64,000 bases of DNA from Methyloversatilis sp. (lineage in GTDB: Bacteria; Pseudomonadota; Gammaproteobacteria; Burkholderiales; Rhodocyclaceae): positions 147,350-211,349 of the forward strand of contig JAEUNO010000020.1 of assembly GCA_016791045.1 (NCBI GenBank), read 5' to 3'. Positions 56,494 through 63,735 of this stretch are shown in pieces. Numbering within the stretch: the first letter of the stretch is position 1; each line of letters opens with the position of its first letter. The translations under genes and the position numbers were made by a program. A model generated the notes under the pieces. It was not told the DNA's origin and made no database searches. It was given only the letters and a program-made list of their open reading frames with translations.

Positions 56494-57462
56494 ATGGCGC
56501 GCAACCCGCAACTGAACCGGCACGGCGAACTGCAGCACCTGCTGACCACGGAAGGCCTGCCGCGCGACGTCATCACGCGCATTCTCGATACGGCCGAGCC
56601 GTTCACGGTGGTGGCCGAGCGCGAGGTGAAGAAGCTGCCGCTGCTGCGCGGCAAAAGCGTGTTCAACCTGTTCTTCGAAAACAGCACGCGCACCCGCACC
56701 ACCTTCGAAATCGCCGCCAAGCGCCTGTCGGCCGATGTGATCAACCTGAACATCGCGACCAGTTCGACCAACAAGGGCGAAACCCTGCTCGACACGGTGG
56801 ACAACCTCGCCGCGATGCAGGCCGACATGTTCGTCGTACGCCACGCCTCCAGCGGCGCGCCCTACCTGATCGCCCAGCACCTCGAAGCCACCGGCCGCGA
56901 CCACATCCACGTGATCAACGCCGGTGACGGGCGGCACGCGCATCCGACGCAGGGCCTGCTCGACATGTACACCATCCGCCACTACAAGCGCGACTTCACG
57001 CAGCTGTCGGTGGCCGTCGTCGGCGACATCCTGCATTCGCGCGTGGCGCGCAGCCAGATCCACGCACTGACTACGCTGGGCGTACCCGACCTGCGCGCCA
57101 TCGCACCGAAAACGCTGCTGCCCGCCGACATCGACCGGCTCGGTTGCCGCGTCTTCCATGACATGGCCGAAGGCCTGCGCGGCGTCGATGTCGTGATGAT
57201 GCTGCGGCTGCAGAACGAACGCATGCAGGGCTCGCTGCTGCCCAGCCCGCAGGAATACTTCAAGTTCTTCGGCCTGACGCAGGAAAAGCTGGCGCTGGCC
57301 AAGCCGGACGCCATCGTGCTGCACCCGGGGCCGATGAACCGCGGCGTCGAAATCGACTCGGCGGTGGCCGACGGCAAGCAGGCCGTCATCCTGCCGCAGG
57401 TCACCTTCGGCATCGCCGTGCGGATGGCCGTCATGGCGATGCTGGCTGGGAGCACGACGTAA
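56494..57462 (+). CDS. pyrB: Aspartate carbamoyltransferase catalytic subunit
   Basis: This 322-aa enzyme makes carbamoyl-aspartate. The carbamoyl-phosphate loop [13 protein letters not shown] is at 60-72. [12 protein letters not shown] and [10 protein letters not shown] carry the other substrate contacts. In this lineage it associates with an inactive PyrC'. The stop is followed after 6 bases by an AT-rich foreign gene, not by pyrC' as usual. Confidence 0.96.
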
Positions 57463-58468
57463 TTCAGTATGAATGCGACTGAGGTGCAAAGACCACTCCG
57501 TAGTGCTTCGCAACGCGCCCGAGTTTTTAGTGAAAATTGGGTCAAGAATCACTTTAACTGCCCCTGCTGCAGCTCGTCGCTTTCGCATACACCCAACAAT
57601 ACGATTGCACTCGATTTCATCTGCACTGATTGCTCGCAAGGCTTTGAGCTAAAAAGTAAGCTCGGAAATTTCGGAAAAACTGTGGTGAATGGAGCATATG
57701 GAACCCTGGTCGAATGTATTCGCGCAGGCAATGCTCCAAATCTCCTTCTTTTGAGCTATAGCGATGATTTGGATGTAAGGAGCTTGCTCGTTATTCCGAA
57801 GAGATTCTTCGTTGAAGAGATAGTCGTCCCGAGAAGGCCCCTCGGACCCCAATGCCGACGCGCTGGGTGGCGAGGTTGCAATTTGAATCTTTCGATCTTG
57901 CCCGACGCAGCAAAAATTGAGTGTGTGAGAGATTTTAAGGCGGTTGATCAGTCTGAAATTGCAAATCGTTGGCGCGAAACGTCGTTCATGGACTCCCTGT
58001 CACCCCGCGGTCAGGGATGGTTAGCTGTTGTCATGGGACTGATTTCAAAGCTGAAACGACGCGATTTTTGTCTTGATGACTTGTATCGGTTCGAAGGTGA
58101 GATGAAGTTGCTCTATCCGCATAATCACAATATCAGGGCAAAGCTCCGACAGCAGCTACAGCGACTACGTGATGCGGGGTGGATCGCATTCGAAGGACAA
58201 GGTTGTTACCGATTGAATTATTAGCGGGAGTTTGCATGAGCGCGAATGAAGGAACACCGAAAGTCTTGGTCGTTGTTTCAGGCGGGAACGCGTACTTTGC
58301 CGCGGAGGGAGCTGTTGAAATCGCGATCTTCGATTGTGACAACTATCGTGCGGACCCGATGCAAACAGCCAAGGTTCCGAAGGGTTTCACCGATTTGGCT
58401 CTCCGTTTGGGCGTGGATGCCGATGCGATCCAAGCCTCGAGCAGTATGGTTGCAAGGCACGATCCAGC
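57463..58468. mobile_element. AT-rich insert within the pyrimidine operon
   Basis: Two genes fill this interval and nothing else fits. Hand counts of 57601-57720 give 52 G or C of 120 (43%), against 37 of 60 (62%) for 57241-57300 in pyrB. No transposase, terminal repeat or target duplication is visible. The first insert gene starts 6 bases after pyrB and the last overlaps pyrC' by 4 bases. Confidence 0.6.
57469..58224 (+). CDS. DpnI-like methyl-directed type IIM restriction endonuclease
   Basis: This 251-aa protein matches DpnI in length (254 aa) and layout. Residues 31-34 (CPCC) and C52/C55 form the zinc site. The PD-(D/E)XK core is D49, E60 and K62 in ELKSK, with the same 11-residue D-to-E spacing as DpnI. 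VVNGAYG, RSLLVIPKRFF and PRRPLGPQCRRAGWRGC are other family pieces. A winged-helix domain (about 180-251) would give a second DNA contact. DpnI cuts only GATC methylated at adenine, so no partner methylase is needed, and none is present. No ribosome site is seen; translation probably couples to pyrB. The AT richness shows recent acquisition. Confidence 0.85.
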   Translation: MNATEVQRPLRSASQRARVFSENWVKNHFNCPCCSSSLSHTPNNTIALDFICTDCSQGFELKSKLGNFGKTVVNGAYGTLVECIRAGNAPNLLLLSYSDDLDVRSLLVIPKRFFVEEIVVPRRPLGPQCRRAGWRGCNLNLSILPDAAKIECVRDFKAVDQSEIANRWRETSFMDSLSPRGQGWLAVVMGLISKLKRRDFCLDDLYRFEGEMKLLYPHNHNIRAKLRQQLQRLRDAGWIAFEGQGCYRLNY

Positions 58469-58472
58469 ATGA
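58236..58472 (+). CDS. Small accessory protein of unknown function
   Basis: This 78-aa protein has a core PKVLVVVSGGNAYFAAEGAVEIAIFDCDN, which resembles small orphan proteins often carried on plasmids and integrative elements. It starts 11 bases after the nuclease gene with a GGGAG site. It ends on the start of pyrC' (ATGA overlap). It might help the nuclease or merely be cargo; the sequence does not say. Confidence 0.65.
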   Translation: MSANEGTPKVLVVVSGGNAYFAAEGAVEIAIFDCDNYRADPMQTAKVPKGFTDLALRLGVDADAIQASSSMVARHDPA

Positions 58473-59767
58473 AGATCCATATAAAGGGCGGCCACCTGAT
58501 CGACCCGGCGCAGGACATCGACGCGCCGACCGACGTCTATATCGCCGCCGGCAAGGTGGTGGCGCTGGGCGAGGCACCGGACGGCTTTCACGCCAACCGC
58601 GTCGTCGACGCCACCGGACGCATCGTCGCGCCCGGCCTGATCGACCTGTGCGCGCGGCTGCGCGAGCCGGGGCTGGAGTACCGCGCCACGCTGGAATCCG
58701 AAATGGCCGCCGCGGTGGCCGGCGGCATCACCAGCCTGGCCTGCCCGCCGGACACCGACCCGGTGCTGGACGAGCCGGGGCTGGTGGAAATGCTGAAGCA
58801 CCGCGCACGCATGCTCAACCTCGCGCATGTGTATCCGCACGGCGCGCTGACCATGGGCCTGAAAGGTCAGCGGCTCACCGAAATGGGCGAGCTGTTCGAC
58901 GCCGGCTGCATCGCGTTCAGCCAGGCGAACGTGCCGGTGGCCGACACCCAGGTGCTGTTCCGCGCCATGCAGTACGCCGCCACGTTCGGCTACACCGTAT
59001 GGCTGCAGCCGACCGATCTGCACCTGTCGTCCGATGGCGTGGCGCACGAAGGCGAAGTGGCCGCGCGGCTCGGTCTGACCGGCATACCGATACTTGCCGA
59101 AACGCTGGCCATCGGCCAGATGCTGCAACTGGCCCGCGCCACCGGCTGTCGCCTGCATCTGGCGCGCATTTCCAGCCGGGCCGGGCTGATGCTGATCGAT
59201 CAGGCACGCCTCGACGGGCTGAAGGTGAGCTGTGACGTCGCCATCCACTCGCTGCACCTGTGCGATGTCGACATCGGCTATTTCGACCCGCAGTGCCGCA
59301 CCATTCCGCCGCTGCGCGCGCAGTTCGACCGCGAGGCACTGCGCGCCGCGCTGGCCGACGGCCGCATCGACGCGCTGTGTTCCGATCACACGCCGGTCGA
59401 TGACGACGCCAAGCAGGTGCCGTTCGCCGAAGCCGAACCGGGCACCACCGGGCTCGAACTGCTGCTGCCGCTCACGCTGTCATGGGCGCGCGAAATGCAG
59501 CTGCCGCTGCGGCTGGCGCTCGCCCGCATCACGTCGGACGCCGCGCGCGTGCTGGGGCTGGACGCCGGACACCTGCGCATCGGCAGCGCCGCCGACGTAT
59601 GCATCTTCGACCCCGACGCACCCGTCATGATCAGCCGCGCGACGCTGCGCAGTCAGGGCCGCAATACGCCGTTCATCGGTCGGGAGCTGCTGGGCAAGGT
59701 GTGCGCGACGCTGGTGTCGGGTCAGGTCGTGTACGAGACGCCCGCGAACGACAAGGCCGCCCGGTAG
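58469..59767 (+). CDS. pyrX: Inactive dihydroorotase-like PyrC' (ATCase partner)
   Basis: This 432-aa protein has the amidohydrolase fold of dihydroorotase. The first metal-binding HxH is replaced: GLIDLCARLREPG (56-68) has Cys and Arg where the two His should be. The later CSDHTPVDDD region is kept. Such pyrC' genes next to pyrB encode a structural, non-catalytic partner that ATCase of Pseudomonas and relatives needs. The active dihydroorotase must be elsewhere. The start is fixed by the ATGA overlap with the upstream 78-aa gene. Confidence 0.9.
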   Translation: MKIHIKGGHLIDPAQDIDAPTDVYIAAGKVVALGEAPDGFHANRVVDATGRIVAPGLIDLCARLREPGLEYRATLESEMAAAVAGGITSLACPPDTDPVLDEPGLVEMLKHRARMLNLAHVYPHGALTMGLKGQRLTEMGELFDAGCIAFSQANVPVADTQVLFRAMQYAATFGYTVWLQPTDLHLSSDGVAHEGEVAARLGLTGIPILAETLAIGQMLQLARATGCRLHLARISSRAGLMLIDQARLDGLKVSCDVAIHSLHLCDVDIGYFDPQCRTIPPLRAQFDREALRAALADGRIDALCSDHTPVDDDAKQVPFAEAEPGTTGLELLLPLTLSWAREMQLPLRLALARITSDAARVLGLDAGHLRIGSAADVCIFDPDAPVMISRATLRSQGRNTPFIGRELLGKVCATLVSGQVVYETPANDKAAR

Positions 59768-61976: not shown

Positions 61977-62954
61977 TCAGTTCCGCTGCACCCGCCGCGC
62001 CGCGACACCGGTCAGCACCAGTCCCGCCAGCAGCATTGCGTACGACGACGGCTCGGGCACTGCGAGCACCGCGACACCGCGCATCTGCGACGGGCTGAAC
62101 GGCAGGTTGGGATCGAAATCCTGCTGCGCCCGGATCACTTCCACTACACCACTGCCATCGAGCGTCATGCTGAGGATGCGACCGGCACCCAATGTGGTGT
62201 TGCCTTGCGGTGTCGTGAACGGGGCCTGCAGCGCCGACACGTAAATCGTGTCGTCGGTGACGTCGATGCCATTCAGGAAGCCCAGCCCGCTGGCCAGCGT
62301 GGTGAGGTCGCTGCCGTCGAGGTTGCTGCGCTTCACGAAGCCATCGGTCGTCGTCAGGTAGATGTGGCCGGCGGTGACTTCGAAGTCATACGAGGTCAGT
62401 CCGGTCAGCAGCGTCTGCACGTTCGAGCCGTCGAGGTTCGAGCGCATCAGGCGGTTCGACGTGCCGACCTGGCTCCAGAACACGCTGTCCGCGGTCACGT
62501 CGATTGCGAACGGCGATGTCAGGCCGCTCTTGAACACGTCGGCGGGCGGAAATTGCAGCGACGGGTCGAGCGTCAGGATGTCGCCCGAGTTCTGCCGCGT
62601 GACATACAGCAGGCCGCCCTGCACATCGATGTCGTAGGCGCCGGAAACGTTGTACACCATCAGATCCGAACCGTCCGGCAGCGAGGACACGACGCGGTTC
62701 AGCTGCTGGTCCGGCCACCAGATGCGTCCACCGACGAACTCGACGCCATTCGGCCCCTTGACGCGGGTCGGGTCGGTCACCAGTGCGCTGGACGTGCCGC
62801 CAGGTACGGTTGCCGTGTTGATCGAACCGACGGTGGCGAACGTCGGCGTGAACCGCTGAAAGGTTTCCGACCACACCAGCTGGTCGGCCGCGACAGCGGC
62901 AAAGCTGCTACAGGACAGTGCAAGCGCGAGGAACTGACGACCCCGTTTTTTCAT
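61977..62954 (-). CDS. PEP-CTERM exported protein with YWTD-like propeller repeats
   Basis: This 325-aa protein has a signal peptide (about residues 1-22, VAA cut) and repeats like RSNLDGSNVQTLLTGL and RSNLDGSDLTTLASGL, which suggest a beta-propeller of the low-density-lipoprotein-receptor YWTD kind. The C-terminus is a PEP-CTERM signal (VPEPSSYAMLLAGLVLTG, then ARRVQRN), read by exosortase at the membrane. The start at 62954 begins the signal peptide. It is unlike the other PEP-CTERM protein in its main domain. A role on the surface or in the matrix is likely. Confidence 0.85.
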   Translation of the reverse strand: MKKRGRQFLALALSCSSFAAVAADQLVWSETFQRFTPTFATVGSINTATVPGGTSSALVTDPTRVKGPNGVEFVGGRIWWPDQQLNRVVSSLPDGSDLMVYNVSGAYDIDVQGGLLYVTRQNSGDILTLDPSLQFPPADVFKSGLTSPFAIDVTADSVFWSQVGTSNRLMRSNLDGSNVQTLLTGLTSYDFEVTAGHIYLTTTDGFVKRSNLDGSDLTTLASGLGFLNGIDVTDDTIYVSALQAPFTTPQGNTTLGAGRILSMTLDGSGVVEVIRAQQDFDPNLPFSPSQMRGVAVLAVPEPSSYAMLLAGLVLTGVAARRVQRN

Positions 62955-63339
62955 TTCTGGTGATCTCCGAGTCTGAACGGCGATGAACGTTTTCGCCCGG
63001 AGACGCCGGTAGCAAGCGGTATTCCTTCGTACAGGAAGGGTTGGGCAGCCGGGGATCGAGCGGCCTCGATGTTTTGGAAAGTCGTTGTACTGATCAACGC
63101 AGCGGCGCAGGAATGTCCATTGGCGAGAATGAGTTATCGCGTTGATGCATGCACACCCGATACCGTAAGCGTATGACAAATCATGCACGGCTTCGACCAG
63201 CCCCGGTGGTGATCGCCCTGCGCGGGAGCGTCGAAATGTTCCGGTGAGCGTCTGGTGTAAAAAAATCCGACACATGGGCAGTGCAAACCAGGGTGCTGCG
63301 GGTCGTTCGAGATTCATCGCCATGCGTGACGCGACGCAG
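62955..63339. other. Intergenic region upstream of the PEP-CTERM gene
   Basis: I see no coding region in these 385 bases. They should hold the minus-strand promoter of the PEP-CTERM gene. A short inverted repeat CGTTG-TACTGAT-CAACG lies at 63083-63099 and could be an operator; the arms are only 5 bp. The REP array begins after it. Confidence 0.4.
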
Positions 63340-63735
63340 GTTTCGCAGGAGCGGGCCTTGCCCACGATCGACGCACCGATCGCGACCACGGGTCGCTCCT
63401 ACAGGTGAAGCGCGTCTTCTTGTAGGAGCGAGCCCCGCTCGCGATCCCGCCCTCTGAGCACGTGACGGCGCATGATCGACGCGCCGATCGCGACCGCGGG
63501 TCGCTCCTACAGCCGAAGCCCCGTTCCCGCAGGAGCGAGCCGTGCTCGCGATGCCGTGCTTCGAACAGGTGATGTCGCGTGATTGACCTGCGGAATCGCG
63601 ACCGGGGGTCGCTCCTACAGGTGAAGCGCGTCTTTTTGTAGGAGCGAGCCGTGCTCGCGATGCCGCCCTCTGGGCACGTGACGGCGCATGATCGACGCGC
63701 CGATCGCGACCGCGGGTCGCTCCTGCGGCCGATGC
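63340..63735. repeat. Second REP-like array with a 108-bp period
   Basis: The ATCGAC anchor recurs at 63367, 63475, 63582 and 63691, spacings 108, 107 and 109. The units carry GTCGCTCCTACA, then TGTAGGAGCGAGCC or GCAGGAGCGAGCC, then GCTCGCGA, in the same orientation as the array at 6.8-7.5 kb. Sequence differs more between units than in the first array. It stops about 10 bases before the thiC stop codon. Confidence 0.88.

Follow-up and report, generated by a model that had tools for sequence, protein, structure and literature searches.

Restriction genes are often carried in islands or on mobile elements. The locus described here raises the question of how a gene for a DpnI-type restriction enzyme came to lie between two genes of pyrimidine synthesis, and whether this place has any significance. 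The window, i.e. the whole stretch of 64,000 nucleotides of a Methyloversatilis genome (G000) that was analyzed, contains at this place an inserted cassette of about 1.0 kb (57463..58468, + strand). The insert was read as a two-gene restriction cassette (dpnI plus orf78) that occupies a recurrent slot at the pyrB-pyrC' junction and whose enzyme would cut Dam-marked DNA; a probability of roughly 0.77 was assigned to this reading. It is based on sequence homology, the conserved residues, the predicted fold, the boundaries of the insert, its recurrence, and the alternative cargo of the slot.

The gene dpnI (57469..58224, + strand) encodes a product of 251 aa, which had been taken for a DpnI-like nuclease in the initial annotation. 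This identification was borne out. The product matched PDB 4esj along its whole length in a phmmer search (E 1.6e-62, far beyond chance). Pfam assigned PF06044 (E 8.9e-54) and PF17726 (E 6.7e-23), and PADLOC assigned mREase_II ('Type II methyl-directed restriction enzyme', E 5.5e-72). A model predicted from 25 sequences (pLDDT 92.3) was compared with 4esj_B by Foldseek, resulting in a TM score of 0.85 and an rmsd of 2.2; the global match to 4kyw_A was poorer (TM 0.61). In structural alignments, the product was 36-40% identical to R.DpnI. It was annotated as a predicted m6A-dependent PD-(D/E)XK endonuclease with a C-terminal winged-helix domain (residues 182-248; 58012..58212, + strand; PF17726).

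E64 and K66 of DpnI are catalytic. Together with D53 they align with E60, K62 and D49 of the product, as had been proposed. These residues lie in one stretch with C31, C34, C52 and C55 (residues 31-64; 57559..57660, + strand), which are called zinc cysteines by analogy with DpnI. The cysteines and the D49/E60/K62 core were unchanged in 25/25 rows of the DpnI alignment. A loss of the core in relatives had been named as evidence against the assignment; it was not seen in the alignment, but a distant relative outside these rows (L036) has Q where the product has E60. In PMC4117772, D53A is used as active-site control for DpnI, and roles in the methyl-binding cleft are given to L129, R135, W138 and G140; in the product, 4/4 of these cleft residues are conserved as L125, R131, W134 and G136 (57841..57876, + strand). 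A loss of active residues in the product was ruled out, the catalytic residues being conserved. Membership in the DpnI family is strongly supported by sequence comparison and the predicted model, and the product is an ordinary DpnI family enzyme, a new example of an established type.

The location between pyrB and pyrC' was confirmed. The left edge of the slot is pyrB (56494..57462, + strand), coding for the catalytic chain of aspartate carbamoyltransferase (322 aa; NF002032, E 6.3e-121), and the right edge is pyrC' (58469..59767, + strand), coding for a dihydroorotase-like partner (432 aa; NF005791, E 5.2e-217). Active dihydroorotases have an HxH motif, and pyrC' carries CAR at this position; the cassette therefore sits between aspartate carbamoyltransferase and a probably non-catalytic partner. 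An insert of a single gene had been implied, and this had to be corrected, since a second gene, orf78 (58236..58472, + strand; 78 aa), begins 11 bp past dpnI. No other genes were judged present in the insert, and neither of the two is a mobility gene. The neighbours of dpnI are pyrB, orf78 and pyrC', and the insert contains no methylase gene; the term 'stand-alone' is thus adequate with regard to a methylase but not to the gene count, as orf78 follows dpnI here and its relatives do so in two other genera. Two short junctions had also been ascribed to dpnI. The one of 6 bp between the pyrB stop and the dpnI ATG was found, but the 4-base junction, an ATGA overlap with the start of pyrC', belongs to orf78; 244 bp separate the dpnI stop from the pyrC' ATG. 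The insert was described correctly as lower in G+C than its flanks, but not at the 43% given: values of 48.4% for dpnI and 54.9% for orf78 were obtained, against about 63-73% in the surrounding region. Inside the insert no terminator was found, and one promoter-like site was detected versus 0.5 expected, none being convincing. A 6-base-word test for direct repeats at the edges of the window's insert yielded shared words of 6 bases only.

The flanks were compared with three congeners, and identity was 0.88-1.00 per 60-nt bin right to the junction, so that an imported donor flank is not visible. Since the genome is a draft of 47 contigs, an assembly chimera was considered; it was rejected as extremely improbable because the insert lies within a contig of 211 kb, the flanks match those of congeners right to the junction, and the two-gene arrangement recurs on one contig in another genome (G617). 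In the alignments with empty junctions, the last pyrB codons in the window were unlike those of the congeners. Elsewhere in the window (61977..63389, - strand), an ORF with a PEP-CTERM-like tail (VPEPSS...) was read by eye.

Searches of orf78 against Pfam, NCBIfam, PADLOC and PHROGs gave no match below E 0.1, and its predicted model (pLDDT 82.8, built from 5 sequences) had no match in the PDB at E <= 0.001. Relatives were present in 3/150 Rhodocyclaceae genomes sampled, with G000 counted. In G617 the relative follows dpnI (52% over 52 aa), as it does in G542 (47% over 49 aa), where it forms the C-terminal portion of a larger frame. A weak relative also comes after dpnI in G153 (phmmer E 0.092; small profile E 3e-5). 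The orf78-like domain was also found on two conjugative plasmids and on a plasmid of Aromatoleum aromaticum EbN1. On the latter (plasmid 1, L297), a type IV CRISPR system has its csf4 two genes upstream of this domain.

For comparison of the junction, pyrB was searched in 40 relatives and loci were obtained for 29, namely 12 congeners, 12 genomes from other genera of Rhodocyclaceae, and 5 from other families of the order. Neither dpnI nor orf78 was matched at any of these junctions (0/29), and the gaps between pyrB and pyrC' were <= 174 bp. A spacer of about 60 bp and altered last pyrB codons were noted at the junctions of G011, G008 and G003 (L004, L005, L043); the spacer has inverted-repeat-like arms (GGTCTGT...ACAGACC), with the letters read for L005 and L043 and only the gap for L004. 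In the congener G003, one contig ends (L044 end) shortly past a full pyrB and the start of a divergent pyrC' (49% over 37 aa); a second contig (L043) has a partial pyrB together with a pyrC' of its own. This double junction is possibly due to a contaminant or a mis-assembly.

PF06044 was tallied in larger sets of genomes. With the window's genome included, it was found in 4/249 genomes of Rhodocyclaceae, 10/399 of the order (9 over cut-off) and 6/369 of the class (5 over cut-off). Three of the 4 Rhodocyclaceae carriers, belonging to three genera (G000, G617, G542), have dpnI in the slot, each time followed by an orf78 gene. In G617 the slot with both genes is on one contig. The dpnI of G542 is split across two contig ends, with pyrB on one and orf78 plus pyrC' on the other, and no overlap between the two ends was found. 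In G326, a genome of another family in which PF06044 was found in 1/22 genomes, the order is pyrB-dpnI-pyrC' with an assembly gap within dpnI. No orf78 match was obtained in this slot, and orf78 is therefore not a fixed part of the slot cassette; as a family that co-travels with DpnI, it is a testable partner for it. A decayed dpnI outside the slot was found in G589 (L158:5327-6061) between metH- and murB-like genes (named by reading translations), which is another housekeeping junction. The DpnI relative of G153 is likewise located outside the slot. G617 has a second DpnI at a contig edge (L156:3-494, G617:C7), which the tree places with an Anaerolineales sequence and which is either a contaminant or a second acquisition.

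A first scan of genome contigs with a single protein gave no relative. In the later scan, 80 of at least 310 relatives were followed up, and pyrB or pyrC' was found beside dpnI in 0/80 loci within the stretches examined. Phage sequences were matched by neither protein of the insert, and viral contigs yielded only 3 partial winged-helix matches. Of the 80 loci, 57 were scored for neighbouring genes; in 7 a DpnI ORF could not be clearly made out, and the other unscored loci lacked a neighbour or lay too close to the end of a contig. By a crude ORF-based count, dpnI was tightly flanked by same-strand ORFs in 10/57 loci. A position of dpnI among ORFs of the same strand is in itself no rarity. This count weakens the initial description of a housekeeping-operon address as unusual, as does the presence, at this very junction, of DpnI in three further genomes and of methylation or restriction genes in another three.

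The latter genes were found in a survey of 129 further Rhodocyclaceae junctions, which were read among the matches listed (236/249 genomes matched). G000, G617, the junctions of the earlier comparison, and G596 (pyrB at contig start) were left out. Gap lengths, counted from where pyrB is expected to end, are accurate to a few bases. Among the matches listed, pyrB was followed by pyrC' in 129/129 junctions, the gap was <= about 222 bp in 126/129, and in these 126 no dpnI or orf78 match was found. The remaining 3/129 all held restriction or methylation genes, a cargo that had not been selected for. The slot of G431 contains a gene for an MT-A70 protein of 224 aa (PF05063, E 3.9e-29; type II methyltransferase in PADLOC) with a host-like G+C content (66.7 vs 64.2%). 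In G573 the slot is filled by an N6_N4 methyltransferase gene (PF01555, E 2.4e-48) plus a gene for a BglII-family endonuclease, which matched BstYI (PDB 1sdo) over all of its 203 residues (E 6.7e-90). The pair in the slot of G555 is about 76% identical to that of G573 in both proteins. BstYI is grouped with RGATCY isoschizomers and called m6A-insensitive in PMC10734518, so that a BstYI-like pair need not oppose m6A. Two of the three kinds of slot cargo (DpnI and BstYI-like) would read a GATC core.

Since some relatives hold other restriction or methylation genes in exactly this gap, the pyrB-pyrC' junction looks like a recurrent, exchangeable socket for such genes. The same flanking genes were found with presence, absence and alternative cargo, and the insert brings neither mobility genes nor repeats (dpnI and orf78; 6-base words only), as is characteristic of a minimal mobile element. 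No prior description of restriction genes between pyrB and pyrC' was found by searches of one open-access library for links to pyrB, pyrC or Rhodocyclaceae. The alternative of an ordinary lateral gain of dpnI by chance, at one of many operon junctions that tolerate in-frame cargo and without any dedicated slot, is unlikely, but it has to be taken seriously: gene-sized inserts are scarce at the junction (3/129 among the matches listed), DpnI loci elsewhere are also tight between same-strand ORFs in 10/57 cases by the crude count, and the copies of the sister-group genome G153 and of G589 (decayed) are located elsewhere. Chance would not readily explain why all 3 unselected inserts of gene size, among the matches listed, are restriction or methylation genes, or why 4 slot DpnIs from two families fall into one clade with one non-slot copy.

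This clade was obtained in a tree of 86 rows, from which L070, L100, L113 and L114 were excluded because their matched stretches contain stop codons. The G589 fragment, which is not from the slot, grouped with the four slot DpnIs (99/90), with G153 as sister (100/91), and G326 was placed inside the slot clade (100/87) with G000 outermost, in a tree whose bootstrap was unsettled (0.967), with G326, G542 and G589 being partial and the root of the clade depending on the long-branched sister G153. The clade of slot and G589 sequences was kept in a smaller tree of 23 of the 86 rows (97/92). Neither of two constrained trees was rejected by the AU test, i.e. the four Rhodocyclaceae DpnIs together without G326 (p 0.44) and the four slot DpnIs together without G589 (p 0.42), and lateral exchange within the slot is thus not proved by the tree. 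Over the same stretches, the DpnI of G326 was 60.7 and 59.4% identical to the window's DpnI versus 53.3 and 44.9% for G617, while the pyrB of G617 was closer to the window's than that of G326 (88 vs 77%).

A vertically inherited pyrB-dpnI-orf78-pyrC' arrangement, ancestral and lost in most lineages, would account for the gene order common to three genera. With slot DpnIs only about 47-61% identical to the window's, the association may indeed be old, and the AU test does not reject the Rhodocyclaceae dpnI rows as a group (p 0.44). Very many losses would be needed, as dpnI occupies the slot in just 3/249 Rhodocyclaceae genomes; the G+C content of dpnI is lower than that of the flanks in G000, G617, G542 and G326; the window's DpnI is closer to that of another family (G326) than to that of G617, which is not true of pyrB; and other genera hold different cargo at the same place. 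Vertical descent was considered improbable and was rejected as the main story because of the many losses, the low G+C of dpnI, the distances, and the alternative cargo. Lateral gain and exchange of the slot dpnI is more likely than descent, in view of its patchy distribution, low G+C, and the distances.

The presence of Dam-type genes in the host and in other carriers of DpnI was also considered. No match to PF05869, PF02086 or TIGR00571 was found in the host, the assembly of which is about 92% complete; in the host genus, PF02086 was found in 2/13 genomes. TIGR00571 was absent from 11/12 DpnI-bearing genomes searched, including those with decayed and partial copies. The exception is G145, which has dam and in which a stop breaks the dpnI frame. 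Among non-carriers in the same search, dam was over cut-off in 9/61 genomes and below it in 3 more. That dam is rarer where DpnI is present fits exclusion in its direction, with numbers too small for proof.

From these results we infer the following course for cleavage, defence, expression, and lateral exchange with its mode. The PD-(D/E)XK domain and the winged helix would each read the methylated G-m6A-TC site, and the dpnI product most likely cuts such DNA inside the site. As both domains would read methylated GATC, incoming phage or plasmid DNA marked by Dam would be degraded in an unmarked host, which presumably makes no such mark itself, and dpnI would need no methylase of its own. Read-through from the pyr operon probably yields the transcripts of both genes of the insert, and the translation of pyrC' would be coupled to orf78 by the ATGA overlap. 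It is plausible that the insert is expressed together with the pyrimidine genes and that it protects against DNA marked by Dam. In the genomes read, the slot is occupied in a few lineages by dpnI plus orf78, by dpnI alone, by a BstYI-like restriction-modification pair, or by an MT-A70 adenine methyltransferase, and lacks gene-sized cargo in the other lineages; cargo would be exchanged through recombination between the conserved flanks, the mode of a minimal mobile element.

A different role was weighed for the DpnI-like protein, namely that it acts mainly as a host regulator or as a replication or repair factor, as suggested for Drg of Neisseria, with orf78 as modulator. In PMC4269198, gonococcal Drg is reported to affect viability, biofilm and gene expression. 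An orf78-like domain comes after dpnI in three genera, counting that of the window. The chance that this is the main role was rated as small, as the patchy presence and the conserved catalytic residues fit a restriction enzyme. For the restriction cassette in a recurrent slot, a more far-reaching form can be put forward only tentatively, and we regard it as rather doubtful in full: in Rhodocyclaceae and one or more other families, the pyrB-pyrC' junction might serve as a dedicated, exchangeable locus for restriction, in which a lineage of DpnI plus orf78 alternates with a GATC-core restriction-modification system (BstYI-like, RGATCY) and an adenine methyltransferase, similar to the GATC cassettes of pneumococcus but expressed from a pyrimidine operon, and in which orf78 modulates DpnI. 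A precise socket of this kind in a biosynthetic operon, free of mobility genes and reused by DpnI, a BstYI-like pair, and MT-A70, would offer a simple natural system for studying how restriction genes are swapped without harm to the host, and in what way a DpnI-type enzyme and methylation of GATC rule each other out.

Among known systems, R.DpnI of Streptococcus pneumoniae (PDB 4esj, 4kyw) resembles the window's enzyme in full length, domains, catalytic residues, and residues of the methyl-binding cleft. It differs in its place, which here is the pyrimidine operon of a betaproteobacterium. In pneumococcus, too, a small second gene, dpnD, follows dpnC. DpnI and DpnII are alternative restriction systems within this one species, comparable to the alternative cargo described here, but the alternatives at the pyrB-pyrC' junction are BstYI-like or MT-A70 and not DpnII. 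According to PMC3573125, in which the primer name dpnDdo also appears, dpnI was swapped for dpnII at the dpnI place in laboratory pneumococcus. BstYI (PDB 1sdo), the endonuclease of a restriction-modification pair, resembles the slot cargo of G573, found in other genomes and not in the window. In the type IV enzymes with a winged-helix fusion described in PMC11037411, m6A is sensed by the winged helix and a methylase is usually not adjacent; both points would apply to the window's protein, which differs in having the DpnI architecture and, judging from this, should cut inside the site. The leuS/dam locus of Neisseria is comparable in several respects. The dam replacing gene drg encodes a DpnI-type enzyme of low G+C beside a housekeeping gene, and a gonococcal copy matched the window's DpnI at 33%. 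Either dam or drg is present there as alternative cargo in one place, as in the pyrB-pyrC' slot, and drg occurs in a host without Dam, just as the window's host had no Dam-type match to three profiles in its assembly of about 92% completeness. The drg locus is called reminiscent of minimal mobile elements in PMC4269198. It differs from the locus described here in its flanking genes, and drg replaces dam, whereas most of the pyrB-pyrC' junctions read here are empty.
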